A DNA stretch of 64,000 nucleotides. Source: Halorubrum lacusprofundi ATCC 49239 (GTDB lineage: Archaea > Halobacteriota > Halobacteria > Halobacteriales > Haloferacaceae). The notes under the pieces were generated by a model, which worked only from the letters and a program-made list of their open reading frames with translations, did not search any database and was not told the DNA's origin. The stretch spans positions 124,001-188,000 of the forward strand of contig NC_012029.1 in the NCBI RefSeq assembly GCF_000022205.1. Direction: 5' to 3'. A program made the position numbers and the translations under genes. Shown piece after piece: positions 2,648 through 15,912 of this stretch (the first letter of the stretch is position 1; every line of letters begins with the position of its first letter).

Positions 2648-3202
2648 TCACCCCAGACGGTTCCGCCGCGTCGACACCCGGTGAATGACCCCGGAGAGGC
2701 CGAAAAGCACCGCGAACAGGACCGCGTACGCGTATCCGGAAACCGCCGCGAACGGGACCGTTCCGATCCACGCCGCGCCGCCGAGCAGTCCGCACACGAC
2801 TGCGAGGCCGATGTAGTACTCCCCCCAGAGGATCTCGTTCCCCGAGACCACTTCGAGGTACATCTCGAGCTGACGGCTCTCCTCGGTCAGCGAGACGATC
2901 CCGCGGTTCGGCTCGTAATCGATGAATCCCCCACCGGCGAGTTTCGGCAGGTGAGACTGGTGGAGCGCGGTGTACACCCGCTTGCGCTGTTTGTACGTCA
3001 CTTCGGGGATTTCGACGTCGTTCTCCCACGCCGCAAGCTGCTCGGCGATGTCCCTGACGCGAGCGTCGTCATCGTGTTGTTTCAGGTAGGTGATCACGTT
3101 CCGCCGCCGCCGGTTACTGAGCGCCTTGAACACCTCGTCCCGTGAGGGTTCGTCGGCGTCGTTGTTCGTCGCTTCCTTCTCCCCTATGAGTTGTGGTGTC
3201 AT
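2648..3202 (-). CDS. DUF7344-type winged-helix membrane protein
   Basis: A 184-residue protein of a haloarchaeal family (DUF7344 as I recall it). Residues 20-110 form a winged-helix-like domain with the hallmark FKALSNRRRRNVITYL and HLPKLAGGGFIDY motifs. Residues about 125-175 contain two hydrophobic segments, so a DNA-binding-like domain appears tethered to the membrane. It ends in a basic tail. It is a likely regulator, but its target is unknown. A paralogue of the same layout lies at 4659-5222, and the pair sits beside the TasA/SipW cluster. The ATG at 3202 is followed by an acidic N-terminus typical of haloarchaeal proteins. The fold assignment is strong and the function is inferred. Confidence 0.8.
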   Translation of the reverse strand: MTPQLIGEKEATNNDADEPSRDEVFKALSNRRRRNVITYLKQHDDDARVRDIAEQLAAWENDVEIPEVTYKQRKRVYTALHQSHLPKLAGGGFIDYEPNRGIVSLTEESRQLEMYLEVVSGNEILWGEYYIGLAVVCGLLGGAAWIGTVPFAAVSGYAYAVLFAVLFGLSGVIHRVSTRRNRLG

Positions 3203-3513: not shown

Positions 3514-4425
3514 ATGACGGCATCACACGATACCGACACCCCTCTCGGCCGGCTTCGGCGTCCAGAGTACACCGGCGAAAACCGCTGTCTCCCCTGCACG
3601 GTCGTCAACGTCGCGATCGCCGCGGTCGGCGCAGTCGCCGTCGGCGCGCTGATCGCGGTCGAACTCGGCGCGGTCGTCCTCGCCGTCGCGCTCGCAGCGA
3701 TCTGGCTCCGCGGCTACCTCGTGCCCGGCACGCCCGAACTCACGAAGCGCTACCTCCCCGGGCGCGCGTTGCGGCTGTTCGGAAAGGGACGCGACGCCGG
3801 GCCGCCGGCGGAGGTCGACGCCGAATCGTACCTCCTGTCGGCCGAGGTGTTGGTCGAGACGCCGGACGGGAGCGACCTCGCGTTCGCGCCGTGGTTCGAG
3901 TCGGCGTGGCGGACGCACCTCGCCGCGCTGCGCGACGCGGCCGACGCCGAGTTCGGCGCGTCGTCGGTGCCGGGCGAGGCGGTCGGAGCCGCCGAGACCG
4001 CCCCCGACGGTACCTGCCCTGCCTCTCCCGCCGACATCGCCGCCCTCGCGCGGCTCGCCGGCGTCGACGAGGACGGGCTCTCGCTGCGGTGGCGCGGCGA
4101 AGCGGGATTCGCGCACGCCGGCAACGAGCGAATCGGTCACTGGGAGTCCCGATCGGCGTTCCTCGCGGATGTCGCCGCCGACCGCGCGTTAACGGCGCAT
4201 CTCGACGACTGGGCGTCGCTCCCGCTCGTCTCCCGGAGCGGCGTGCTCGGTGCGCTCCGGCTGTTCGTCGAGCGGTGCCCGACTTGTGAGGGGCCGGTAC
4301 AGTTGGAAGAGCGGGTCGTCGAGTCGTGCTGTTCGAGCTACGAAGTCGTCGCCGGGCGGTGTACCGCGTGTACCGCGCGGCTGTTCGAACTCGACCTCCC
4401 GCCGTCGCTCGCGGAAGCGCGGTAG
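3514..4425 (+). CDS. Conserved membrane protein with Cys-rich C-terminus, function unknown
   Basis: 303 residues. An N-terminal CLPC motif (about residues 25-28) is followed by one or two hydrophobic segments (about 30-70). A soluble middle part is rich in Asp, Glu and Ala. The C-terminus looks like a treble-clef or zinc-ribbon site: CPTC near residue 254, then CCSSYEV and CTAC about 15-30 residues later. I do not recognise a named family, though the layout is one I associate with haloarchaeal conserved proteins. It is transcribed away from the DUF7344 gene at 2648-3202 and ends 57 nt before a repeat element. Metal binding is an inference from Cys spacing. Confidence 0.7.
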   Translation: MTASHDTDTPLGRLRRPEYTGENRCLPCTVVNVAIAAVGAVAVGALIAVELGAVVLAVALAAIWLRGYLVPGTPELTKRYLPGRALRLFGKGRDAGPPAEVDAESYLLSAEVLVETPDGSDLAFAPWFESAWRTHLAALRDAADAEFGASSVPGEAVGAAETAPDGTCPASPADIAALARLAGVDEDGLSLRWRGEAGFAHAGNERIGHWESRSAFLADVAADRALTAHLDDWASLPLVSRSGVLGALRLFVERCPTCEGPVQLEERVVESCCSSYEVVAGRCTACTARLFELDLPPSLAEAR

Positions 4426-4481
4426 TACGGACCCGTTTTTGACGGCGTTCGATCGGCGGCGCTCGCCGCGGCGAACGCGCA

Positions 4482-4625
4482 TTTATAAGGGATCTACAGC
4501 GTCGTTGTCGGCTGTTTATAAGTGGTTGCTGGCGGATCGACGGTGAACACCTCCAAAGCCCCAGCCGCGAGGCCCGTTGGCCGCTCGCCGGCGCACGCCA
4601 CCGCCTCGGCGACGACTTTTATAAG
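4482..4625 (+). repeat. TTTATAA-bounded hairpin element, copy F (internally deleted)
   Basis: Occupies most of the gap between two convergent genes. It begins with TTTATAAG (4482-4489), repeats TTTATAAG at 4515-4522, then has the family head GTGAACACCTCCAAAGCC and left hairpin arm AGCCGCGAGG (from 4563). It then jumps straight to the family tail (GCGCACGCCACCGC) and ends with TTTATAAG at 4618-4625. The right hairpin arm and the C-rich middle found in the other copies are absent, so this is an internal-deletion derivative of 144 bp. No gene is present here. Confidence 0.8.
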
Positions 4626-4658
4626 TAACACCGAAACGTCGCAAAATCGCAGGTCGCC

Positions 4659-5222
4659 TCAGCCGCGTCGTCGCAGACGGAGGGTGGCACTTCGGCCGGC
4701 TCGAAGCTGCCGGAGCACGGAGAAACGGTTGATCCACAGTTGGTAGGCGCTCGCGGCGGCGAACAGCGCGAGCGCGAGGCTCGTCAGCAGGACCGGATCG
4801 ATCGCGGAGACGAGGGGGACGCCGAGCAGCGCCGCGAGCAGGACCGTCAAGGAGACGACGCCGAGCGCGCGGTACAGCTCCGACCACGTGACGCCGGCGC
4901 TCGCGACCACCTCGGTGTACAGCGCCACGTCCCGCGCGTGCCGGGACACCTCGATCGTCTGGGTCTCCCGGTCGTACTCGATCACGCCGAGCTCTTCGAG
5001 CTTCGGGAGGTGCGTCTGCACGAGCGACGTGTACACGCTCTCGCGACAGCGCTTCGGCGGCGGGCTCTCGCCGGTCTCGTGGCCCGCGACCAGCGCCGAC
5101 AGCTCGTGAACCGTCACGACGCCGCCGACGCTCCCGAGCTGTTCGAGAGCGCGCCGACGGCGTTCGTTCGCGAGGATCGTGTACACCTGTTCGGCCGGAA
5201 GTAGGTCTGTTCGGAGCTTCAT
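4659..5222 (-). CDS. DUF7344-type winged-helix membrane protein (paralogue)
   Basis: 187 residues from the ATG at 5222. A longer frame continues upstream, but its extra sequence does not look like family protein. Residues about 1-110 form the winged-helix-like domain (YTILANERRRRALEQL, HLPKLEELGVIEYD). Two membrane segments follow (about 125-170) and then an Arg-rich tail. It has the same architecture as the product of 2648-3202. It is probably a membrane-tethered transcription factor; since it is divergent from the TasA-like gene at 5671, control of that cluster is a reasonable guess, not shown by sequence. Confidence 0.75.
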   Translation of the reverse strand: MKLRTDLLPAEQVYTILANERRRRALEQLGSVGGVVTVHELSALVAGHETGESPPPKRCRESVYTSLVQTHLPKLEELGVIEYDRETQTIEVSRHARDVALYTEVVASAGVTWSELYRALGVVSLTVLLAALLGVPLVSAIDPVLLTSLALALFAAASAYQLWINRFSVLRQLRAGRSATLRLRRRG

Positions 5223-5670
5223 GGATGTGGGCCGCCGACGTCCGAAAAACGGAGCGTCAGTCGATACGTCTGACACGTCCGATGGGAGCATATGTATGGT
5301 CCGGCTACCCGGTCGGCGACGGACCTCGCCGCTCCGCTCTCCTCGCGAAATCACCGAAAACCGATACACGTGAGCGAGTTGAGTTACGGGCGACTCGGTG
5401 AGCCCGCCGAACGCCGACGCCACGTGATACGGCCTTCGTACCGCTCGGACCGCCGCGAGTACGTTCTTCGTTCCGGGATCGGCGCCATGAGTAGGGCACC
5501 CAAACCGCCGATCGAACGGCCCGTTGAACCGAGAAAATCTGGCGTTCTACCCGGTCGAACGGCGCGTTCGACGATGACGTGGCTACGCGTAACTACGTCG
5601 GTATCCCTCGGAGGAGAGAGTAACCGACTTCGGCTAACCGGCACGGACGGGGGCGAGTCGGCAACGAACC
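5223..5670. other. Intergenic region between divergent genes
   Basis: 448 nt without a credible gene; the frames that cross it are short and Arg/Ser-rich like other GC-driven shadows. It must hold the promoters of the DUF7344 gene (leftward) and of the TasA-like gene at 5671 (rightward). An AT-rich patch GCATATGTATGG at 5289-5300 is the best TATA candidate, facing either way. I see no clear TATA at the -27 distance from 5671 and no repeat. Confidence 0.5.
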
Positions 5671-7146
5671 ATGAACCCGGACACAAACGACACAATCGGA
5701 CTCTCGCGACGCACGCTGCTCGCCGGCCTCGGTGCCGTCGGCGTGGCCTCTGCGGGCGCGGGACTCGGGACGACGGCGTATTTCAACGACACCGAGTCGT
5801 TTGAGGGTAACACGCTCACCGCGGGCGAGCTCGATCTCAAGCTCGACTACCGCGCCACGTACGCGGGCGGCCCTGGGCGCATCGATGAGATCAACGGCTG
5901 GTATCCGGACTTCGAGGTTGAAGAAGAGGAGGACGGCGTCTACCTCATCGGCGAGGTCCCGAATATCGACGAGGGCGAGTGGCCCGATATCGTGCAGGAG
6001 CGCGACTTCTGTGCGCCCGACGTGGGCCTGATCAACGGCGACCAGATCCCGGTCTTCACGCTCGACGACGTGAAACCCGGTGATTGCGGCGAGGTGACGA
6101 TCAGCCTCCACATCTGTGACAACCCCTCGTGGGTGTGGATGAACGGTGAGCTAACCGCGAACGACGAGAACACCGTCTCCGAGCCCGAGGCGGGCGCGGA
6201 CGGTGAGGGTAACGCGCTCGGCGACGACAGTGACGGCCCGATCAGCGGTGAGGGCGAGCTGGCCGACGCCATCGACGTGACGGTATGGTACGACGAGAAC
6301 TGCAACAATATCCTGGACGCCGACGCCGAGGAAGCAGGGGATTCGGTGTGCGTTCAGCTCGTGATCGACACGTCCGGATCGATGGGTGGCAGCCGTATCG
6401 CCAACACGAAAAGCGGCGCGAAACAGCTTGCGGAAACTATCCTCGATGCGAATCCCGACAACCAGGTCGGCGTCACGCGATTCAACAACGGAGCCAGCAC
6501 GCCGCAACAGCTGACTGATGACCTGGACGACGTCGAGGCCGCGATCGACGGGCTCAGCGCGAGCGGAGGCACCAACGCTCAGGCCGGCGTGGACGCCGGA
6601 CAGGCTGAACTCGAGAACTGCCCCCACGACAACCGCGTGATGGTCGTCTTCGGCGACGGCGACATCAACACCGACGGCAGCGCGGCGAAAGTCGCTGGGA
6701 CCGAGATCTTCGCGATCGGCGTCGGCGGCGCGAGCTTCAGCGACCTCGAGGACCTCGCCAGCGATCCGGCCGACGAGCACGTGTTCTTCGCGATCGACGA
6801 CGGGGCCATCGAGCAGATCTTCGGACAGGTCGCCGAGACGATCACAGTCGGCGAGGAGGTCATCTTCGAGGGATCGCTCGCCGGGGCGATGGCTGCGCTC
6901 TCGGATGGGATTGCGCTTGACGGCAACCGCTCTGTCGAGGGCCGACAGCCCTACGAGGGCGGCCTCACCCAGTGTATCGGCTTCGAGTGGTGTCTGCCTG
7001 CAGAGGTCGGCAACGAGGTCCAGACCGACTCCGTGGCCTTCGATCTCGGCTTCTACGCCGAACAGTCGCGGCACAACGACGCGCCGGACGTGTCGTTCAA
7101 CGGAACGGCCCCGACCAGCAACAGCACCGCAAACGTGTCGCAGTAG
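5671..7146 (+). CDS. SipW-dependent TasA-like secreted protein with nested vWA domain
   Basis: 491 residues. The N-terminus has a TAT-like leader (SRRTLLAGLGAVGVASAGAG) and then TTAYFNDTESFEGNTLTAGE, the hallmark start of SipW-processed TasA/camelysin-type proteins. Two parts of a TasA-like beta-sandwich flank an inserted von Willebrand A domain (about residues 225-390) with the metal-ion site DTSGS near residue 231 and GDGD later. The sandwich resumes with EGSLAGAMAALSDG and closes with the family motif FYAEQSRHND. The paralogue at 7279 lacks the insertion at the same point, showing a nested domain. Probably exported and assembled at the cell surface; adhesion or fibre formation is inferred from bacterial TasA and from vWA biology. 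Confidence 0.85.
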   Translation: MNPDTNDTIGLSRRTLLAGLGAVGVASAGAGLGTTAYFNDTESFEGNTLTAGELDLKLDYRATYAGGPGRIDEINGWYPDFEVEEEEDGVYLIGEVPNIDEGEWPDIVQERDFCAPDVGLINGDQIPVFTLDDVKPGDCGEVTISLHICDNPSWVWMNGELTANDENTVSEPEAGADGEGNALGDDSDGPISGEGELADAIDVTVWYDENCNNILDADAEEAGDSVCVQLVIDTSGSMGGSRIANTKSGAKQLAETILDANPDNQVGVTRFNNGASTPQQLTDDLDDVEAAIDGLSASGGTNAQAGVDAGQAELENCPHDNRVMVVFGDGDINTDGSAAKVAGTEIFAIGVGGASFSDLEDLASDPADEHVFFAIDDGAIEQIFGQVAETITVGEEVIFEGSLAGAMAALSDGIALDGNRSVEGRQPYEGGLTQCIGFEWCLPAEVGNEVQTDSVAFDLGFYAEQSRHNDAPDVSFNGTAPTSNSTANVSQ

Positions 7147-7230
7147 ACACGCGACTCCGAGCGGGACACCCGCTCGCCCCCGGGCGGTACTCGCCCGGTT
7201 CCCGGTTCGGCGCCTTCGGGCGGCCGACGC

Positions 7231-7269
7231 GGCGGTTCGTGACCGCCACCGGGAGTTCCCCTCAGGGGA
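7231..7269 (+). promoter_or_regulatory. Two-hairpin intercistronic leader upstream of 7279
   Basis: Hairpin 1 is GGCGGT-TCGTG-ACCGCC (7231-7247). Hairpin 2 is TCCCC-TCA-GGGGA (7257-7269), ending nine bases before the ATG at 7279. The leader at 8704-8743 has the same order with different stem bases. The GGGGAT strand could also serve as a weak ribosome binding site that the hairpin would mask. Confidence 0.5.
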
Positions 7270-7278
7270 TGATACACA

Positions 7279-8631
7279 ATGAACGACGATACAATCGGAC
7301 TCTCGCGGCGCAAGATGCTGGTCGGACTCGGTGCGGTCGGTGTCGCCTCCGCGGGCGCAGGACTGGGAACGACGGCGTACTTCAACGACACCGAGTCGTT
7401 CGATGACAACACGCTGACGGCCGGCGAACTGGACCTGTTCGTCCACGTCGACTACTCCGAAGACCAGGGCAGCTACGCGCAGTACTCCACCCCTGACGGG
7501 ACCTTCATCGACGGCAACGTCGTGGGCGGCGGAGAGGGTGACCCCCTCAGCATCCAGGTCTCCGACCTCAAGCCCGGCGACTCCGGCGAGGGCGAGTTCT
7601 GCTTCTCGATCGTCGACAACCCCGCGTACATGTGGATGTGTGGCGCGGTGACTGAGAACAACGAAAATGGGCAGTCCGAGCCCGAGATGGACGCCGACAC
7701 GACCGGCGGCGACCCCGGCGAAGGCATGGGCGAACTCGCCGACGCGATGCAGGTGACTGTCTCGTACTGCACCGACGACGACGGCGAATACGCTCTCGGC
7801 GAGGAGATCGCTTCCGGCTCGCTGGCGGACGTGATGAGCGCGCTCGACAACGGCATCCCCCTCTCCGGCGACGGCGACGCGGAGGCCCCGGTCGACGGCC
7901 GCGCGCCCTTCGAGGGCGTCGACTCGGCTTTCGTCAACGAAACCGAGGTCAACGCGGCCGAGCAGTGCGTCTGCTTCGAGTGGGAGGTCCCGTTCGACGT
8001 GGGCAACGAGATTCAGACCGACTCTGTCGCGTTCGACTTCGAGTTCTACGCGGTGCAGTCGCGCCACAACGACGGCTCGGCCAACCCCTGTATCACCTCC
8101 CGTGAGGTCGAGGGCTTCGGCAAGCAGGACTACGAGCCGGACGCCGACGTGCTGTGGGCCTCCAAGGCGCGCAACGGCGGCTCCAACACCTTCGAGCTGA
8201 TCGTGGGCGACGACAACAGCAACGCCGACACCGCCGACTACGACTTCGGCGGCAGCAGCTTCGACGGTGACCTGACGGTCGCGTACGACGCCGACACCGG
8301 CGAAGCGACTCTCGAACTCGCCAACGGTACCACCACCGACGTCAGCTACGCCGTCAGCAACGCCGCCGGCGACGTGATCTCTATCGTCGCGCGCGGCAGC
8401 GACGCGAGCCACCTCGCGAGCGTCTCGAACGTCCGGGTCAACGGGACGGCCCCAACTGGTCCCGACGCAGTCGAGGCGGACGGCAGCGAGACCGTCTCTC
8501 TCCTGATCGAGGACGTCGACGCCAGCGCCGACTGGGAACTGACCGCGGACGTGGCGTTCGAGGGCCTCGACGACGACCCGAGCGCTTCGGACGAGAACCC
8601 CGCAGTGTACGTCGAGGTGCTCGACGCGTAG
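7279..8631 (+). CDS. SipW-dependent TasA-like secreted protein without vWA
   Basis: 450 residues. It has the same TAT-like leader and TTAYFNDTESFDDNTLTAGE opening as the neighbours. The TasA-like sandwich is uninterrupted (about residues 50-265): where the paralogues at 5671 and 8752 carry a vWA insert, this protein runs directly into GEEIASGSLADVMSALDNG. The closing motif FYAVQSRHND is followed by an extra C-terminal beta-rich domain (about 275-450) with repeated Ala/Asp/Thr-rich strands. That domain resembles the extra anchor-type modules often attached to haloarchaeal SipW cargo, an uncertain assignment. Likely the core, non-adhesive subunit of the same surface system. Confidence 0.8.
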   Translation: MNDDTIGLSRRKMLVGLGAVGVASAGAGLGTTAYFNDTESFDDNTLTAGELDLFVHVDYSEDQGSYAQYSTPDGTFIDGNVVGGGEGDPLSIQVSDLKPGDSGEGEFCFSIVDNPAYMWMCGAVTENNENGQSEPEMDADTTGGDPGEGMGELADAMQVTVSYCTDDDGEYALGEEIASGSLADVMSALDNGIPLSGDGDAEAPVDGRAPFEGVDSAFVNETEVNAAEQCVCFEWEVPFDVGNEIQTDSVAFDFEFYAVQSRHNDGSANPCITSREVEGFGKQDYEPDADVLWASKARNGGSNTFELIVGDDNSNADTADYDFGGSSFDGDLTVAYDADTGEATLELANGTTTDVSYAVSNAAGDVISIVARGSDASHLASVSNVRVNGTAPTGPDAVEADGSETVSLLIEDVDASADWELTADVAFEGLDDDPSASDENPAVYVEVLDA

Positions 8632-8703
8632 GCGGACGGCTTCACTGACATACGGGGGCGTATTCCCCCACCTCCCACTCCGGACCCGCGCGGGCGGCCG
8701 GGA

Positions 8704-8743
8704 CGACGGTTCGACTCCGTCGGTGGGACTTCCCCTCGGGGAA
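8704..8743 (+). promoter_or_regulatory. Two-hairpin intercistronic leader upstream of 8752
   Basis: Hairpin 1 is CGACGG-TTCGACT-CCGTCG (8704-8722). Hairpin 2 is TTCCC-CTCG-GGGAA (8730-8743), eight bases before the ATG at 8752. Stem bases differ from the copy at 7231-7269 but pairing is kept. A further hairpin, GGGGG-CGTATT-CCCCC, lies just after the upstream stop codon (about 8654-8669) and may mark an RNA end or processing point. Confidence 0.5.
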
Positions 8744-8751
8744 TCACACTC

Positions 8752-10467
8752 ATGGCAGACAACGACAACATCGACACAATCGGACTTTCGCGGCGCACGC
8801 TGCTGGCGGGCCTCGGCGCGATCGGCGTGGCCTCAGCGGGGGCTGGGCTCGGGACGACGGCGTACTTCAACGACACCGAGTCGTTCGAGAACAACACGCT
8901 CACCGCCGGCCAGCTCGACCTGCTCGTCGACTGGCAGCAGACGTACGACTTCGGCGATGGCCATCAGTTCGTCAGCGCGCACCCGGACCACGACGGCGAC
9001 GGGGAGCAGTCGATCGCCGCTGACAACGACGCCGGAGAGATCAAGTACAGCGACTTCCCGGACGACGAGGACGAAGACAGCAACGGGGCGAACATCCCCG
9101 TCCTCGACTGCGAGACCATCCCGCCGCTTTCGGAGGCGGACTTCGGCACGGACCCCGTCACCGGCGAGGAGATGGAGACGCTCGTCCAGTTCACCGACGT
9201 GAAGCCCGGCGACTCGGGCGAGATCACCTTCTCGTTACACCTCTGTGACAACCCCGGCTACATCTGGATGCAGGCGGGCAACGTCAGCGATGAGGGCGGC
9301 GCGTTCACGGAGCCGGAAGACGTCGCTGCCGGCGAGAACGCCGCCGACCTCGCGGACGCCATCGACGCGAAGCTCTGGTACGACGAGGACTGCGACAACG
9401 TTCACGACGACGCGGGACCGATCGACATCATGCTCACGCTCGACTTCTCGGGGTCGATGCTGTACGACCAGTACGGCGGCGTGGTGAGCACGGACCCGAT
9501 CCAGGTCGACGGCCAGAGCTACGGCGAGACGACGAAGATCGACCTCGTCGAGCTCGGCACGCGGCAGTTCATCGACTACCTGCAGGCGCAGAATGCCGAC
9601 GTGCAGGTCGGCGTCGTCTACTTCGACGGCGAGGGGAGCGGCGAGAACACCCCTCGGACCGGCATCCTCGAACCGCTAACGACCAACCTCTCGGCGGTCG
9701 ACACCGCGCTGTCGAACCTCCGTCAGAAGCTCGCGAACGTTGTGAGCGACGCGGCCCCGTCGACGCCGTTCGACAACGACGGGAACCCGGACCCGTACTC
9801 GAACGCCGACGGCATCGCCACGGGCACCTACATCAGCGAGGGGCTCGACGACGCGCAGACGGAACTCGCCAGCAACGGTCGAGCGAGCGCGGAAAAGCGG
9901 AACATCGTCCTCTCGGACGGCGAGTCGTTCAACGGCGACGGGAACACGAACTACGCGCCGCCCGCGAGCGCCGCGGCCAACGCCCGCGCCGCGTCCCCGG
10001 CGCCCGCGACCGACGTGTACACGATCAACGTCAACGGCAGCGCCAGCACGCTCCAAGCGATGGCCGGCCCGGCCGGCGGCTCGGGCGGCGATCCCGTGTT
10101 CTTCAACGACATCAACGACCCGCTCAACATCCCGACGGTGTTCGGCAACCTCGCCGCACAGACCGTCGCGGAGAAGGTCATCATGGAGGACACGCTCGCG
10201 AACGTCCTCGACGCGCTCGCGGACGGGAACGGCGTCCCGCTCGACGGGAACCGTGCGACGCTGTACGACGAACTCAGCGACGACCCCAACGACCCGGACC
10301 GCGAGGCGTTCCGCGGTGACGGCGTGATGCACTGCGTCGCGCTCTCGTGGGAGCTCCCGTTCGACGTGGGCAACGAGATCCAAGGCGACACGCTCAGATT
10401 CGACCTCGGGTTCTACACCGAACAGGCGCGCCACAACGACGGTACCGGTCCCGATCTGCCGGCCTGA
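8752..10467 (+). CDS. SipW-dependent TasA-like secreted protein with nested vWA domain
   Basis: 571 residues, the largest of the three cargo paralogues. Leader SRRTLLAGLGAIGVASAGAG then TTAYFNDTESFENNTLTAG. The first sandwich half ends at KLWYDEDCDNVHDDAG. A vWA domain (about residues 225-455) follows, with metal-ion site DFSGSM near residue 229, the Thr-containing GIATGTYISEG loop and the VLSDGESF strand. The sandwich then resumes with EDTLANVLDALADG and ends FYTEQARHNDG. This repeats the nested architecture of 5671. The vWA metal site appears complete, so ligand binding through a divalent ion is plausible. Probably co-transcribed with the upstream genes through the hairpin leaders. Confidence 0.85.
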   Translation: MADNDNIDTIGLSRRTLLAGLGAIGVASAGAGLGTTAYFNDTESFENNTLTAGQLDLLVDWQQTYDFGDGHQFVSAHPDHDGDGEQSIAADNDAGEIKYSDFPDDEDEDSNGANIPVLDCETIPPLSEADFGTDPVTGEEMETLVQFTDVKPGDSGEITFSLHLCDNPGYIWMQAGNVSDEGGAFTEPEDVAAGENAADLADAIDAKLWYDEDCDNVHDDAGPIDIMLTLDFSGSMLYDQYGGVVSTDPIQVDGQSYGETTKIDLVELGTRQFIDYLQAQNADVQVGVVYFDGEGSGENTPRTGILEPLTTNLSAVDTALSNLRQKLANVVSDAAPSTPFDNDGNPDPYSNADGIATGTYISEGLDDAQTELASNGRASAEKRNIVLSDGESFNGDGNTNYAPPASAAANARAASPAPATDVYTINVNGSASTLQAMAGPAGGSGGDPVFFNDINDPLNIPTVFGNLAAQTVAEKVIMEDTLANVLDALADGNGVPLDGNRATLYDELSDDPNDPDREAFRGDGVMHCVALSWELPFDVGNEIQGDTLRFDLGFYTEQARHNDGTGPDLPA

Positions 10468-10666
10468 TTTCCCGGCTTACGCCGGCCCGCTGAGCAGTCG
10501 ATCCACGTTGGACCGGGTGGCAGATCGGGTGACTACGCGGGGGTATGACATTCGTACTTCCGGGTACGACCGCCGTTCCGGCGGGGTAGGACGCGCATAC
10601 ATACGAGTGCAGTGAGGGTAGGAAGGGTATCGACGAAACGGCCGTTCGGAGCCGCAACGACACACA

Positions 10667-11461
10667 ATGACACAGAAAGAATCGAAACTCACGCGGCGGG
10701 AGGCACTCGCGGGCGTCGGGGCCGTCGGCTTCGCGACCCTCGGGGCCGCCTCCGGACGGCCGACGGGAACGGACGGCTGGAGCGAGTACTCGGAGTACAC
10801 GTACGCGCAGTCCGACACCCCGTGGGACCTGCGAGTCGGCTGGCGGCGCACGGTGAACGGAGCGGTCGTCGGATCGAGCCCGATCGATGGCGTCGTCGAC
10901 GTCGAGGCGGCTGGGATCCGACTCGTCGACGTCGAGGACGCGCTTCCGGGAGACTACGGGACCGCGAGCGTCGGGCTCCGACTCGACGACCCCGCGGGCA
11001 CCGCCCCGGACGGCGTTCGGGTGTGGCTGCGGATCGACCCTCGCCTCGGTGACGCCGACGCGGCGAGCGCGGCCCTCGCCGAGCGCATCACGCTCGACGT
11101 CCGGTACGACACCGGAATCCTCGGGATCGGGGGCTGCGGGGGCGCCGAGAGCGACTTCGCCGGCTACGGCGAACCGATCGCGTCCGGAACCCTCGCGTCG
11201 CTCGACGGCTCCGCGCTCGCGACGGGCGTGGAACTCAATCCCAGACTCCTCGGAAACGGCTGTCTCACAACCGATGAGCGTCGCTGTCTGATCTTCGCGT
11301 GGGAGTTCGAATCGGAGGGCGGCAACGCCGGACAGGGCGGCGCCGTCGACTTCGACGTGGAGTTCGCCGCGGACGACTGCGGCGCCGAGGGGAACCCGTT
11401 CGAGGCGACCGACGGAGCGAGCGGAGACAGTTCGCTCGACGCCGACGGGGGATCCGCATGA
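10667..11461 (+). CDS. TAT-exported TasA/SipW-type protein, short variant
   Basis: 264 residues. TAT motif LTRREALAGVGAVGFATLGA, then a TasA-like domain in degenerate form: the FNDTESF box is replaced by EYTYAQSDTPWDLRVGW, but the interior GDYGTASVGLRLDDP and IASGTLASLDG strands align with the cargo proteins. The C-terminus (DDCGAEGNPFEATDG) is acidic and disordered-looking. Its TGA overlaps the ATG of the next gene (ATGA at 11458-11461), so translation is probably coupled. A 199-nt gap precedes it, with possible TATA elements (GCATACATACG, about 10592), suggesting a new promoter. Role in the surface system is inferred from context. Confidence 0.75.
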   Translation: MTQKESKLTRREALAGVGAVGFATLGAASGRPTGTDGWSEYSEYTYAQSDTPWDLRVGWRRTVNGAVVGSSPIDGVVDVEAAGIRLVDVEDALPGDYGTASVGLRLDDPAGTAPDGVRVWLRIDPRLGDADAASAALAERITLDVRYDTGILGIGGCGGAESDFAGYGEPIASGTLASLDGSALATGVELNPRLLGNGCLTTDERRCLIFAWEFESEGGNAGQGGAVDFDVEFAADDCGAEGNPFEATDGASGDSSLDADGGSA

Positions 11462-12537
11462 CTCTCGGAGACGACGGCGCGGGGCGCCCGAGCGAGATGA
11501 GCCGGCGCCGCCTGCTCGCCGGCATCGGCGGTATCGGCGCTGCCGGGATGGCGAGCGGGCTCGGGACGGGGGCGTATCTCTCGGACCGCGAGACGTTCCC
11601 GAACAACGGCTTCGGTGCCGGAGAGGTCGAGCTGGTCGTGAACGACACAGTCTCTGACGGGACCTTCGCGGTCGACGTGTCGGAGATCAATCGCGGCCAC
11701 GATGGCACCGAGCGGTTCGATATCGAGGTACGGACGAACCCCGTTCGAGTCTGGCTCGCGACCGACTGTCCGGACGCTAGCGACGCCCTCGCGAACGTCC
11801 TCGAAATCAAGGTCATCGTCGACGGGGAGTCGCTGACGGGTGATTACCGGTCCCTCGCCGACGTCGAACGAGACCTCGTCGCCGGCGAACGCCTCGTCGA
11901 GGGCTGTCTCGACTCCGATGACAGGGTGACGGTCGAGGTGTACTGGCATCTCCCCGCCAGCGCGCCCGACGAGGTCGCCGCCGAGACGACCGACCTGACG
12001 TTCCGGCTGTACGCCGAGCAGTGTCGCCACGTCTCCGAGGCGGACGCCGCCGGATCGAACCCCTTCGCCGACCGCGTCTGTGAGGGGCCCGAGTGCGTTC
12101 CCTGCGCGGACGAGAACGGCGTCAAGATCGGCTCGCTCACGCTCCGGTACCTCGGCAACGAGCCGGCTGACGTGGTCGTCGTCGCCACCGGCGGCGGCGC
12201 CGGCGGCGTTGGCGGCGGCGGGACGGAGGTGTTCGTGGCAGCAGTGGGTCCCGACGAGACCTTCGTGGTCGACGGGTCGGCGTCGCCCACCGGTGATCCG
12301 GACTGGATCGGTCCGAACATCTCCGTCGACGACGGGTCGGAGACCGGCGAGAGCAACGGGAACGGGAACGGAAACGGCAACAACGGGAATGGAAACGGCG
12401 GAAACCGTCCCGCGGGCGTTAACATCCATACGAGCTGTTCGGTCTCGATCGGTCCCGGAGACATCTACGGCGACTTCGAGATCGTCGCGGCGACGACCAC
12501 GGACGGCGAGCCGATCTGCGGCTCGGAGGAACTCTGA
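11458..12537 (+). CDS. TAT/SipW-type secreted protein with Gly-Asn-rich linker
   Basis: 359 residues from the ATG at 11458. Leader MSRRRLLAGIGGIGAAGMASG, then GTGAYLSDRETFPNNGFGAGE, the SipW-cargo signature. TasA-like region to about residue 200 with the closing motif FRLYAEQCRHV. A Cys-rich stretch (CEGPECVPC) and a Gly-rich loop follow. Near the C-terminus a run of alternating Gly and Asn (about residues 300-320) looks like a flexible linker, encoded by repeated GGGAACGGGAAC-type sequence prone to slippage. The last part may be a small beta domain. One base overlaps the signal peptidase gene (TGATG at 12535-12539), tying export substrate and processing enzyme into one translational unit. 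Confidence 0.8.
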   Translation: MTLGDDGAGRPSEMSRRRLLAGIGGIGAAGMASGLGTGAYLSDRETFPNNGFGAGEVELVVNDTVSDGTFAVDVSEINRGHDGTERFDIEVRTNPVRVWLATDCPDASDALANVLEIKVIVDGESLTGDYRSLADVERDLVAGERLVEGCLDSDDRVTVEVYWHLPASAPDEVAAETTDLTFRLYAEQCRHVSEADAAGSNPFADRVCEGPECVPCADENGVKIGSLTLRYLGNEPADVVVVATGGGAGGVGGGGTEVFVAAVGPDETFVVDGSASPTGDPDWIGPNISVDDGSETGESNGNGNGNGNNGNGNGGNRPAGVNIHTSCSVSIGPGDIYGDFEIVAATTTDGEPICGSEEL

Positions 12538-13598
12538 TGAACAATCCACTCACATCACCACGACTCAGGAAGGCGGCGAACGTACTCGGGATCGTCCTGT
12601 TGATCGCCATCGTCGCCCCCTTCGCGGTGTACGCGGCCCCGGAGATCGTCGGCGCGGACGAGAGCTTCGTCGTGCTCACGCCGAGTATGACGCCCGAAAT
12701 CGCGCCGGGAGACGTGGTGATCGTCGCCGAGCGAGACCCGACGGCGATCGTCGAGGGCGACGTGATCACGTTCGCTCGCGGCGCGAGCGACGTGCCGGTG
12801 ACGCACCGCGTGATCGACGTGGTCGACGAGGGCGGCGGCCTCGCCTTCGAGACGCAGGGCGACGCCAACGAGGGACCGGACCCCGGGCTCGTCCCCGCAG
12901 CGAACCTCGTCGGCGCGGTGACGTTGACGATCCCGTACATCGGATACGTGATTCAGTTCGCAGGCACGCGAACCGGCTTCGTCATGCTGGTGCTGCTCCC
13001 GTTTGGTCTGCTCGCAATCACCGAGATCTGGTCGGTCGTCCGGGATCGCGACGAACGCGGGGCGTCGACCGCGGCGGCTGCAGAGTCAACCGACGGCTCG
13101 TCCGATAATTCGATCGACGAGACCGGCGGCAAAACGACGAGCTCCGCGACCCCGATCGAACCCGCTGCGACCAGCTCCGGGGGCGTCTCCGTCGACGCGG
13201 TCGGCGGAGCGGCCGCGGTCCTCGCGGCGTTCGCCCCGTATGCTGTCTACGTCGCGCTCCAGCTTCGAACCGCCGCCGCGATCGCGATCGCGGTGGGTGC
13301 GTCGACGCTCCTGCTCGGGGCGCTCGCGGCGTGGGTCCCGGCTAGCGGCGTCCTCGATCGCGGCGAACCGGTCGCGAAACCGTCCGAAGACGACGGTGCG
13401 TCCGACGCCGACTGGGAGACGCCTGCCTTGGCCGACGACCCCGAGAACGGCATCGACGGGCGGCCGACTCCCACCGACGGATCGACCGATGCGGGCGACA
13501 CCTCCGACCCGGCCGCAGCGATCGACGGGTCGGGATCGGCTCCGCCGGAGGCGCCGCCCGCACCGGGGCAGCCGAACGGGGCCGGGGAGGGGAACTGA
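12537..13598 (+). CDS. SipW-type (archaeal/ER-type) signal peptidase I
   Basis: 353 residues. N-terminal membrane anchor (about 12-33). The catalytic Ser lies in LTPSMTPEI (Ser50). The ER-type His lies in VPVTHRVI (His90) and the Asp in TQGDAN (Asp109): Ser-His-Asp, as in SipW and eukaryotic Sec11, with no Lys general base. A second membrane segment follows at about 128-165. The C-terminal half adds more hydrophobic segments (about 210-275) and a long Pro/Asp/Gly-rich tail not needed for catalysis. It cleaves the leaders of the neighbouring TasA-like proteins by inference from gene order and from Bacillus SipW. It overlaps both neighbours by one base. Confidence 0.9.
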   Translation: MNNPLTSPRLRKAANVLGIVLLIAIVAPFAVYAAPEIVGADESFVVLTPSMTPEIAPGDVVIVAERDPTAIVEGDVITFARGASDVPVTHRVIDVVDEGGGLAFETQGDANEGPDPGLVPAANLVGAVTLTIPYIGYVIQFAGTRTGFVMLVLLPFGLLAITEIWSVVRDRDERGASTAAAAESTDGSSDNSIDETGGKTTSSATPIEPAATSSGGVSVDAVGGAAAVLAAFAPYAVYVALQLRTAAAIAIAVGASTLLLGALAAWVPASGVLDRGEPVAKPSEDDGASDADWETPALADDPENGIDGRPTPTDGSTDAGDTSDPAAAIDGSGSAPPEAPPAPGQPNGAGEGN

Positions 13599-14137
13599 TG
13601 GCTGGGAACCGCGGACTCGTCGGCCTCCTCGCACTCGCCGTGTTGGTGTGGGGAGTCGCGTTCGGCGGCGGGCTCACCGTCGCCGTCCTCACGTCGAGCG
13701 TCAACGTGACGGCGACGTTCGAGACGACCGACGGTCTCACCGCGATCGACGAGTCGATCGGTAGCGATCCCGCCGCTGCGACCGTCCCCGTCGGGAACGG
13801 GACGGGAGACGCAGAGGGACTTGAGAACGTCACCGTCCCACCGGAGAACGTCTCGCTCCCGTCGGACGAGCCGGTCACGAACGGTTCGGTGACGCCGAAA
13901 AACGAGACGGTGCCGCCTGAGAACGCGTCAGAACCAACTGAAAACGCGCCGGAATCCTCCGAGAACGCGGTGACGCCGCCGACGGACGAGGGAGCTCCGA
14001 CCACGAACGAGTCGGCCCACACTGGAAACACGGCCGCCGAGAGCGCGTCGGCGTTCAGGGGTAGCATCCCCGAATCAATGACTCCCGACGCTCGTCGGTC
14101 AATGACCTCCCCGACACGATCTGCGGGAGAGGCGTGA
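13598..14137 (+). CDS. Secreted or membrane-anchored Thr/Pro/Asn-rich protein, unknown
   Basis: 179 residues. One hydrophobic N-terminal segment (about 8-32) serves as signal or anchor. The rest is low complexity, rich in Glu, Pro, Thr and Ser, with many N-glycosylation sequons (NVT, NVS, NGS, NET, NAS, NES). Such a stretch suggests an extended, glycosylated extracellular stalk. The ATG shares its A with the TGA of the signal peptidase gene (TGATGG), and its own stop overlaps the next small gene. No family recognised. A structural or tethering role in the SipW cluster is inferred from context alone. Confidence 0.7.
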   Translation: MAGNRGLVGLLALAVLVWGVAFGGGLTVAVLTSSVNVTATFETTDGLTAIDESIGSDPAAATVPVGNGTGDAEGLENVTVPPENVSLPSDEPVTNGSVTPKNETVPPENASEPTENAPESSENAVTPPTDEGAPTTNESAHTGNTAAESASAFRGSIPESMTPDARRSMTSPTRSAGEA

Positions 14138-14313
14138 GCGTGACCTCGCCGATCCGGCCGCGGGAACCGGCGGAGAGACGCACCGCGAAGTCGGCTCGTC
14201 ACTCTCTGTTCGGGACAAAGCTGGCGGTGTTGCTGTTCTTGGCTGTGCTGCTCCTGTTCGCCCTGCTTTCCGGGATCGCTCGCGGAATTGCGACACCCGT
14301 TCACGATTATTAA
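14134..14313 (+). CDS. Small single-span membrane protein, GTG start
   Basis: 59 residues, starting at a GTG whose GTGA (14134-14137) overlaps the upstream stop codon and ending at TAA 14311-14313. The basic N-terminal half (PREPAERRTAKSARH) is followed by a strong membrane segment KLAVLLFLAVLLLFALL and a short outside tail. It would be easily missed because of its length and GTG start. The four-base overlap continues the pattern of the preceding genes, which supports it being real. Function unknown; a membrane partner of the signal peptidase or an assembly factor is possible. Confidence 0.6.
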   Translation: MSVTSPIRPREPAERRTAKSARHSLFGTKLAVLLFLAVLLLFALLSGIARGIATPVHDY

Positions 14314-14340
14314 GTGCCGGCCGATCGAACCGCCGAACGT

Positions 14341-15138
14341 ATGGTCGCACTCGATGCGTTCGCGTTCGTCTTCGTTGCGGGGCTCATCACGGCGCTCGCG
14401 ACGGGTATCGGCGCCCTTCCCTTCTTTTTTTTCGACTCGATCAGCGACCGCGGCAACGTGGCGCTGTGGGGGTTCGCCTCCGGGATCATGCTGGCGGCGT
14501 CGCTGTTCGGGCTCGTCGACGAGGGGCTCGCCGAGGGAACGCCCGGAGAGATCGGGATCGGGATGCTCGCCGGCGTGGCCCTCGTCGTCCTCGCGCACGA
14601 CGTGCTGATGGACGCCGAGATCGACCCGCAGGAGTACGAGGAGGCCGACTTCAAGAAGCTCGTCCTGATCCTCGGCGTGCTGACGGTCCACAGCTTCCCG
14701 GAGGGGATCGCGGTCGGCGTCTCCTTCGCGGACCTCGGACTGGAGGGCGGGACCCAGCTGTTCGGGTTTACCGTCCCGCTTTTAGCGGTGTTCATGACCC
14801 TCGCCATCTCGATCCACAACGTGCCCGAGGGGACCGCCATCTCCATCCCGCTGCGGTCGATGGGCGTCTCGAAGTGGAAGATGGTGTGGTGGTCGGTGTT
14901 CTCCAGCCTGCCGCAGCCGATCGGCGCGGTCGTCGCGTTCGCGTTCGTCCGCTACGCCCGCGAGTTCCTCCCGTACGGCTTCGGCTTCGCCGCCGGCGCG
15001 ATGATCTATCTCGTGGTGTCCGAGTTCATCCCCGAGGCGCTCGAAACCGGGGCCGATCTTCCCGGCGGCGGCAAGCCGGTACTCGCCGGCGGGATCGGGC
15101 TCGGCGTCCTGTTGATGGTTCCTCTCAACTTCATTTGA
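14341..15138 (+). CDS. ZIP-family divalent metal transporter
   Basis: 265 residues from the ATG at 14341; a GTG at 14314 is in frame but less likely. About eight hydrophobic segments. The metal-binding helices carry HSFPEG (about residue 118) and HNVPEG (about 160), the ZIP signature pair. It would import zinc or another divalent cation down its gradient. An AT-rich GATTATTAAG lies 30 nt upstream of the ATG, the right distance for a leaderless TATA, so it has its own promoter and is not part of the SipW operon. The substrate cannot be read from sequence. Confidence 0.9.
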   Translation: MVALDAFAFVFVAGLITALATGIGALPFFFFDSISDRGNVALWGFASGIMLAASLFGLVDEGLAEGTPGEIGIGMLAGVALVVLAHDVLMDAEIDPQEYEEADFKKLVLILGVLTVHSFPEGIAVGVSFADLGLEGGTQLFGFTVPLLAVFMTLAISIHNVPEGTAISIPLRSMGVSKWKMVWWSVFSSLPQPIGAVVAFAFVRYAREFLPYGFGFAAGAMIYLVVSEFIPEALETGADLPGGGKPVLAGGIGLGVLLMVPLNFI

Positions 15139-15151
15139 CTCCAGACCGGTC

Positions 15152-15218
15152 GCCGATCGCCGCCGCCAACACCTGAGCCGATCGCCATCGCCGACACCTG
15201 AGCCGATCGCCGCCGCCG
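15152..15218. repeat. Short tandem repeat, 25-bp unit, about 2.7 copies
   Basis: GCCGATCGCCGCCGCCAAC plus ACCTGA repeats at 15152, 15177 and (partial) 15202 with few differences, filling the 114-nt gap between the ZIP gene and the DsbA-like gene. Probably a slippage product; no gene or obvious regulatory role. Confidence 0.8.
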
Positions 15219-15252
15219 AACGGCCTTTGCCGCTCGCGACCGGACCGACGGT

Positions 15253-15912
15253 ATGTCGAACACTGACGCCGCGGATGCACCGACTCCCGACGCGACCGAG
15301 TCGATCACCATTTACTCCGACTACGTCTGTCCGTTCTGTTACCTCGGCCGACAGTCGTTCGCGCGGTATCAGGAGACGCGCGAGGAACCGCTCGCGATCG
15401 ACTGGCACCCGTTCGACCTCCGTGCGGGGAAGCGCGGTCCGGACGGCGAGATCGACGACACCGCGGACGACGGGAAAGACGAGGAGTACTACGAGCAGGC
15501 CCGCGAGAACGTCCGCCGCTTACAGGAGAAGTACGACGCCGAGATGGCACAGGAGCTCAGAACCGACGTCGACTCGCTCCCGGCGCAGATCGTCTCGGTG
15601 CACGTGCGAGAGACCGCGCCCGAGTCGTGGCTCGCATTCGACGAGGCGATATTCGCGGCGCTGTGGCAGGACGGTCGCGACATCGGCGACCGCGAGGTGC
15701 TCGCCGACATCGCCGCCGACGTTGACGGGCTCGACCCCGAGATCGTCGACGAGGCGCTCGCGGACGACGACCTCCGCGACCGCGTCACCGACCTGTTCAC
15801 CGCGGCGCGGGAGCGCGGAGTCACCGGTGTCCCGACGTTCGCGTACGACGGCCACGCTGCCCGGGGCGCGGTGCCGCCGGAGCAGCTCGAACGGCTCGTC
15901 GGCGACGTGTGA
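15253..15912 (+). CDS. DsbA-family oxidoreductase, FrnE-like
   Basis: 219 residues, no signal peptide, so cytoplasmic. A thioredoxin fold with helical insertion: the active site CPFC lies near residue 28 in YSDYVCPFCYLGRQ, and the cis-Pro loop in RGVTGVPTFAYDG (about 195). The length and the two-domain pattern match FrnE/2-hydroxychromene isomerase-type DsbA proteins. It probably handles thiol-disulfide exchange, and homologues are linked to oxidative stress. The gene stands alone between the ZIP gene and a convergent PAP2 gene. Acidic N-terminal 15 residues are typical of haloarchaea. Confidence 0.9.
   Translation: MSNTDAADAPTPDATESITIYSDYVCPFCYLGRQSFARYQETREEPLAIDWHPFDLRAGKRGPDGEIDDTADDGKDEEYYEQARENVRRLQEKYDAEMAQELRTDVDSLPAQIVSVHVRETAPESWLAFDEAIFAALWQDGRDIGDREVLADIAADVDGLDPEIVDEALADDDLRDRVTDLFTAARERGVTGVPTFAYDGHAARGAVPPEQLERLVGDV

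Follow-up and report, generated by a model that had tools for sequence, protein, structure and literature searches.

How might an archaeon obtain separate messages, possibly in unequal amounts, for related surface subunits whose genes lie one after another on the same strand? A gene cluster of Halorubrum lacusprofundi ATCC 49239 raises this question. It lies within a stretch of 64,000 nucleotides (nt) of contig NC_012029.1 (positions 124,001 to 188,000), which we term the window, and encodes three paralogous exported proteins, cargos 1 to 3, with a small structured element in each of the two gaps between them. On balance, we favor the view that this is a TasA-type surface fibre locus whose cistrons are separated by tRNA-like elements (t-elements) that would be cut by RNase P and tRNase Z, and whose products would leave the cell by the twin-arginine (Tat) route with processing by a SipW-like peptidase. 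The central features, in window positions, are as follows.

5671-7146, plus strand: cargo 1, with a Tat/SipW-type leader, a predicted split TasA-like fold and a nested vWA domain (DTSGS at 233)
7199-7255, plus strand: element 1, in the gap between cargos 1 and 2, with the variant loop TTCGTGA; family membership less certain
7279-8631, plus strand: cargo 2, a plain TasA-like subunit without vWA, with a C-terminal extension of about 185 residues
8672-8729, plus strand: element 2, in the gap between cargos 2 and 3, tRNA-like; match to the RNA model R1 (see below) at 8683-8729
8730-8751, plus strand: short leader running from element 2 to the cargo 3 start codon, with the hairpin TTCCCC-TC-GGGGAA
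8752-10467, plus strand: cargo 3, with a Tat/SipW-type leader, a predicted split TasA-like fold and a nested vWA domain (DFSGS at 231)

Structure and covariation of the inter-gene element

We compared 42 cargo loci, the window and 41 relatives, in which relatives of the neighboring genes were identified by tblastn. A T-arm-like hairpin, GGCGG-TTCGAYT-CCGCC or a close variant, is found upstream of 75 of the 138 cargos. The complete element has an acceptor-like stem (GACCCAC/GTGGGTC), a short D-like stretch carrying GG (GCYGGYGC), an optional extra hairpin and the T-arm; on its 3' side a second small hairpin precedes the start codon. Element 2 of the window shows tRNA geometry, with an acceptor-like stem (P1, CCCAC/GTGGG), a GG arm and a T-arm with a T-loop (CGACGG-TTCGACT-CCGTCG). 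Element 1 has the same three-way-junction layout, and its loop departs from the canonical T-loop; it is treated here as a divergent relative only and is not classed as a t-element. The initial annotation of the cluster, whose observations were confirmed in part and whose interpretation is partly supported by the results below, had missed both elements (about 7199-7255 and 8672-8729). Searches of window positions 4000-15500 and of eight strong loci gave no Rfam match to the elements.

Covariation was analyzed in 17 compact elements from other genomes, chosen from the 75 T-arm hairpins for a compact insert and, in most cases, a pairing 5' strand, with the register fixed. Changes on both sides were seen at 10 of the 13 pairs. 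Paired cells amounted to 95.5%, a value that leans upward because of the way these elements were picked, compared to 85.6% in shuffled alignments, none of which (0 of 500) scored as high; slid registers gave 28-57%. RNAalifold, unprompted, returned the identical 13 pairs. When the set was extended to 67 distinct rows, in an alignment fitted to the model, 11 of the 13 pairs had changed on both sides and 92.2% of cells were paired (0 of 500 shuffles). A register with a 5-bp T-stem and a 7-bp acceptor stem was rejected: it left 34 of the 75 elements fully paired, compared to 37 for the 6+7 register, which best fits the compact elements.

The 17 elements were the sole training set for the RNA model R1. 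In an alignment that took in the Halorubrum elements their long middle arm was misaligned, so R1 was built without them; the window elements therefore serve as held-out tests.

Position of the element at cargo genes

A search of the 3.69-Mb genome of H. lacusprofundi with R1 placed the gap between cargos 2 and 3 first (E 4.2e-8; E 7.3e-10 within the window). An unrelated, weak match came second (E 0.12) and the gap between cargos 1 and 2 third (E 0.56; E 0.0097 within the window). At a threshold of E<=0.01, 69 R1 matches were found in 848 kb of cargo loci, which include the sources of the 17 training elements, and every one lies on the cargo strand. Sixty of them are located no more than 130 nt upstream of a listed cargo start, with a median gap of 24 nt. 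By reading, five more precede unlisted or mis-started cargos (L053 8235, L032 11209, L033 12930, L030 14572 and L030 9899, given as locus and position) and two precede P0004-like genes (L039 15310, L040 16587), while the remaining two (L044 14628, L053 12012) have no assigned gene.

The matches are unevenly distributed along the arrays: among the 78 later cargos, those with another cargo before them, 52 are preceded by a match, compared to 8 of 60 first cargos. The 26 later cargos without an R1 match comprise 16 with a variant-loop hairpin, 2 with mis-called starts and 8 with nothing. Two Natrialbaceae plasmids, retrieved by blastn with a window element, show the same arrangement; taking genes annotated as SipW-dependent or VWA as cargos, R1 matches occur in all four gaps between adjacent cargos.

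Kinship with 5S rRNA leaders

A tRNA-like t-element forms the leader of 5S rRNA in Haloferax, where tRNase Z processes it; both RNase P and tRNase Z act on t-elements (PMC4326828). These elements have also been used as tools for the release of CRISPR RNAs (PMC4326828, PMC4946936). In an R1 search of 9.4 kb around the three 5S genes of H. lacusprofundi, the top three matches were the leaders (E 0.005-0.01). In other genomes, R1 matches end 1-2 nt upstream of the 5S start given by Rfam. Eight 5S elements and the 17 fibre elements could be aligned over 45 columns, with 9 of 13 pairs changed on both sides and 92.6% of cells paired (0 of 500 shuffles). One pair in the middle of the acceptor-like stem changes from C-G to G-C in eight rows, which are the 5S rows. 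Since a model trained on fibre elements retrieves 5S leaders, and since the two groups align jointly, the fibre elements are t-elements by family: they belong to the haloarchaeal 5S leader t-element family. From this relationship to a processed leader we infer that RNase P and tRNase Z most likely cut the fibre mRNAs at the elements.

Two alternatives bear on this point. The elements could be DNA sites at which recombination or cassette exchange shuffles the cargos, or repeats that were copied when the genes were duplicated. Cargo arrays do differ in number and type among relatives, and near-identical elements are found within one array (L048). Against this, G-U pairs are frequent among the compensatory changes (about 50 cells of the 67-row alignment), which indicates RNA, and the same element precedes 5S rRNA genes; we consider the DNA-site explanation very improbable. 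Integron-like cassette sites were set aside on these grounds, because the pairs vary via G-U and the element also occurs upstream of 5S rRNA. Alternatively, the element may remain uncut and control translation or stability of the downstream cistron in cis, for example as a protein-bound or ribosome-affecting leader. Its proximity to the start codon would suit such a role, as would the hairpin of at least 4 bp that precedes the ATG in 59 of 59 comparable leaders (30.9 expected from shuffles). A simple leader, however, has no need of a tRNA-like elbow or of kinship with a processed 5S leader, and the elements are far commoner in gaps between cargos than before first cargos. Uncut control of this kind therefore appears improbable to us.

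Distribution among haloarchaea

R1 matches were detected in 227 of the 391 sampled genomes of class Halobacteria and in 65 of 86 genera. In a phylum-wide sample they occur in 35 of 294 genomes. Just one of these 35 falls outside the order to which the window belongs, and of its two matches, the one examined proved to be a real tRNA.

In 27 of the 30 best R1 loci the gene that follows belongs, by reading, to the TasA superfamily; these genes encode SipW-type cargos, DUF1102/Taf-like pilins, TafF-like proteins and, in one case, a P0004-like protein. For the other three (L067, L079 and L087) no fibre gene was identified on the downstream side. Twenty weaker loci, from the lower end of the listed class matches, comprised eight before SipW-type genes, two before Taf/TafF-like genes, six 5S rRNA leaders and four others. 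A further 20 loci hand-picked from the phylum sample, partly as suspected 5S leaders, gave 11 5S leaders, 4 elements before fibre genes, 1 tRNA and 4 others. H. lacusprofundi itself carries Taf/DUF1102-like genes at C2:493097-494588 and C1:82730-84352 (L092-L098), and no R1 match was reported at these in the genome-wide scan. At L099, L116, L127, L131 and L136, t-element-like matches precede genes unlike fibre genes; these are possible further mRNA substrates.

The locus might be an ordinary haloarchaeal TasA-like locus, its inter-gene hairpins being no more than GC-rich noise or terminators. GC content is indeed high, and folding scores of single sequences are weak. We find this explanation hardly credible given the specificity of R1 in whole genomes, with a single matched genome outside the order, whose one examined match is a real tRNA, and given covariation that no shuffle equaled in the 17-element, the 67-row and the joint 5S alignments.

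Several observations nevertheless weigh against cutting of the fibre messages at t-elements. Elements before the Halorubrum orthologs of cargo 2 carry the loop TTCGNGA rather than a canonical T-loop (e.g. L014 2745-2801); this group may be either degenerate or differently recognized. T-stem and acceptor-like stem together make a helix of about 13 bp, element 2 included, one more than the 12 of tRNA. Single-sequence folding is modest, with z from -0.9 to -2.5 relative to shuffles (-2.25 for element 1). Eight of the 78 downstream cargos have an element of neither kind, R1 matches precede unrelated or unclear genes at 4 of 20 loci in each of the two weaker sets, and co-transcription of the cargos is an assumption.

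A split TasA-like fold with a nested vWA domain

Cargos 1 to 3 share the leader, an N-terminal half extending to a Y-strand and a C-terminal half extending from a G-S/T-L-A strand to the motif FY-EQ-RHND. The halves flanking the seam align in all three proteins, far above chance. The initial annotation had stated that all three resume at a shared strand and end at FY-EQ-RHND; the shared strand is borne out, but only the vWA cargos 1 and 3 terminate soon after the motif, and cargo 2 runs about 185 residues beyond it, with a weak match to choice-of-anchor W (E 1.6e-4). This extension (window 8074-8631) is present in many plain-type relatives and its fold is predicted without confidence.

A vWA domain lies at the seam of cargo 1 (PF00092, E 2e-18) and, weaker by sequence, of cargo 3 (PF13519, E 0.002), and none is seen in cargo 2, in agreement with the annotation. 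The metal-ion-dependent adhesion site (MIDAS) motif, DxSxS with downstream T and D, is found in the vWA cargos. The AlphaFold2 model of cargo 3 (predicted local distance difference test, pLDDT, 80; predicted template modeling score 0.73) contains a full vWA fold at residues 224-470, between fold strands at 205-210 and 476-481. This domain resembles the vWA domains of pilus-tip proteins (Mfa5, Z 21.1; SpaC, Z 20.2). SpaC is also the top row in a Foldseek search with cargo 3, and RrgA is row 47; adhesin and other vWA domains fill the list, so the search says little about the TasA part of the protein.

The model of cargo 2 has a pLDDT of 63 overall, with most of the core at 85-95 and a poor C-terminal extension. 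Among 350,542 PDB chains, Foldseek placed the TasA fibre 8aur at the top (E 3.4e-4), the sole match at E<=0.001. VIA gave Z values of 9.4 (5of1), 9.3 and 8.1 to TasA entries, compared to 7.0 for the next row. The archaeal bundling pilus 7ueg is matched weakly (Z 5.7, root-mean-square deviation 7.7). Structure prediction, one of the checks that had been proposed for the locus, thus did not give the outcome that would have refuted the initial interpretation, models lacking a TasA-like split fold; of the two relationships suggested earlier, that to bacterial TasA stands and that to archaeal bundling pili is weak. Models and alignments together support a single split TasA-like fold in cargos 1 to 3, with vWA nested at one seam in two of them.

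We located the seam in other cargos with hidden Markov models of the N and C halves, which placed 123 of the 138 cargos; the 15 left out are incomplete. At least 150 extra residues are present at the seam in 65 of the 123 (42 loci), and 58 have less. A MIDAS-like D.S.S motif occurs in 51 of the 65 large inserts, and 27 of 89 scanned cargos match a Pfam VWA family. Large inserts lacking D.SGS (14 in the tree set) are mostly without a Pfam match, and 2 of 10 scanned resemble divergent vWA domains. Seam inserts that reach 150 residues or more but lack the MIDAS motif, again mostly without a Pfam match, occur in L021, L027, L028, L029, L036, L048 and L053. Domains other than vWA may have been swapped into the TasA-like fold at the same seam. 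On a tree of the fold minus insert for 113 cargos, built by a quick method, with long branches and without bootstrap, insert and plain states change 7 times and the vWA state 10 times; for each label, starred branches force at least 4 of the changes. The seam is a recurrent insertion site that has probably gained and lost inserts repeatedly.

It could be argued that the vWA proteins are not fibre subunits but secreted adhesins in their own right, with no more than the TasA fold and the peptidase in common with such subunits. For the plain type only does TasA rank above all other structural matches, and most rows in the search with the vWA protein are adhesin or other vWA domains. The vWA cargos, on the other hand, have the same split fold and leader as the plain subunit, lie in the same gene cluster and have the same element between genes, and on the quick tree the two forms interchange (at least 4 of the 7 changes being forced for the plain label). 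We regard separate adhesins as less likely than not.

Export genes and flanking genes

The remaining genes of the cluster, and its upstream neighbor, are listed here.

4659-5423, minus strand: DUF7344 winged-helix protein with C-terminal transmembrane segments, start uncertain (PF24035, E 1.8e-25)
10667-11461, plus strand: TasA-like relative, related to the cargos (tblastn match in 39 of 42 loci)
11458-12537, plus strand: SipW-type cargo 4, with a weak C-terminal DUF7467; start taken at ATG 11458
12537-13598, plus strand: SipW-like signal peptidase (S50, H90, D109); relative in 33 of 42 loci
13598-14137, plus strand: small Thr/Pro/Glu-rich protein with a membrane anchor, its gene overlapping that of the peptidase; relatives present in 19 of 42 loci

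Cargo 3 is followed by a gap of 200 nt and then by the overlapping set beginning at 10667, 11458, 12537 and 13598. Four open reading frames match the SipW signature TIGR04088 above cut-off (5671-7146, E 1.4e-7; 7279-8631, E 4.5e-8; 8752-10467, E 1.7e-7; 11458-12537, E 7e-4), and each has a twin-arginine leader. They are the only four matches in the genome. The signature is found in 167 of the 391 sampled genomes of the class. No match to it was found in 10667-11461, though this is a TasA-like relative. The camelysin/M73 Pfam model scores cargo 3 at 23.5 bits, over its cut-off of 22.5, and the remaining cargos below. The product of 12537-13598 is an S26 signal peptidase of the SipW/archaeal type (TIGR02228, E 1e-29, over cut-off); it also matches NF046067 (E 4e-30), yet falls under the Bacillus equivalog cut-off of that model. 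S50, H90 and D109 are at the expected places and are presumably the catalytic Ser-His-Asp. These results uphold the initial annotation of several Tat-leader proteins accompanied by a SipW-type peptidase.

The DUF7344 protein, a divergently transcribed neighbor upstream of cargo 1, has a relative in 38 of the 42 cargo loci (tblastn) and is a candidate fibre regulator. A second DUF7344 winged-helix/transmembrane protein is encoded near the cargos at window positions 2648-3202 (minus strand).

Proposed processing of fibre messages

If the cargos are transcribed together, a t-element would fold in each gap between them. RNase P and tRNase Z would cut the co-transcript at each element, removing the t-element and leaving single-subunit messages, and each downstream mRNA would then begin with a short hairpin leader that could protect or tune it. 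A single operon might thus supply plain and vWA subunits in differing amounts, with ratios set post-transcriptionally. Judging from the signature and from synteny, precursors would be exported by Tat and cleaved by the local SipW-like peptidase just before the A/Y-F-N-D stretch. Plain subunits would build or cap the fibre, and vWA subunits would display their MIDAS-type domain from the seam of the fold. Polymerization and adhesion at this locus we infer from the predicted fold.

Mitochondria punctuate transcripts with real tRNAs. Haloarchaea may punctuate protein-coding operons with stripped-down tRNAs, excised by RNase P and tRNase Z to yield separate, differently stable subunit messages, in a class-wide layout of TasA-superfamily fibre operons where vWA or other domains are swapped at one seam; the case for this general proposal seems to us evenly balanced. 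If it is true, the tRNA maturation machinery would double as an mRNA processing system that sets archaeal fibre subunit ratios, the two enzymes would gain a class-wide set of mRNA substrates, and archaeal polycistronic mRNA processing would have a defined signal. It would also explain how one operon could yield a major subunit together with rare adhesive ones that carry vWA, and the seam would mark the point at which functional domains are naturally exchanged in a TasA-type fibre. Our literature searches turned up no paper that deals with tRNA-like elements of fibre operons or with haloarchaeal TasA proteins bearing a vWA domain. Novelty is uncertain, since part of the element catalogue may already be in print for H. 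volcanii (Holzle 2012).

Comparison with known systems

The locus resembles the Bacillus subtilis tapA-sipW-tasA operon and its TasA fibre in having SipW-type leaders, a dedicated SipW-like peptidase and the TasA fold. Unlike that operon, it has Tat-type leaders, vWA inserts, several paralogous cargos and tRNA-like elements. TasA assembles by donor strand, and the Pyrobaculum bundling pilus 7ueg is a TasA-like archaeal filament (PMC9674648); the latter differs in its weak structural match to cargo 2. Haloarchaeal DUF1102/Taf-like pilins (NCBIfam TafA/C/E/F) share the tRNA-like element before their genes, and one of them, L076, matches the 'Pilin' of PDB entry 9p0a (E 2.4e-12). They differ from the cargos in forming a separate pilin family, whose matches to the Taf models fall under the curated cut-offs, and no vWA match was found in the eight examined. 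The sortase-pilus and type V pilus tip adhesins SpaC, RrgA and Mfa5 likewise carry a vWA domain in a pilus tip subunit. In the cargos, by contrast, the host fold is TasA-like, and export by Tat and cleavage by SipW are predicted, with no sortase. The closest counterpart of the RNA element is the 5S t-element of Haloferax volcanii, with which it shares the acceptor-like stem, the GG D-like loop, the optional extra hairpin and the 6-bp T-arm. The fibre elements, putative cleavage sites, differ in where they sit: between protein-coding fibre cistrons and not before 5S rRNA.

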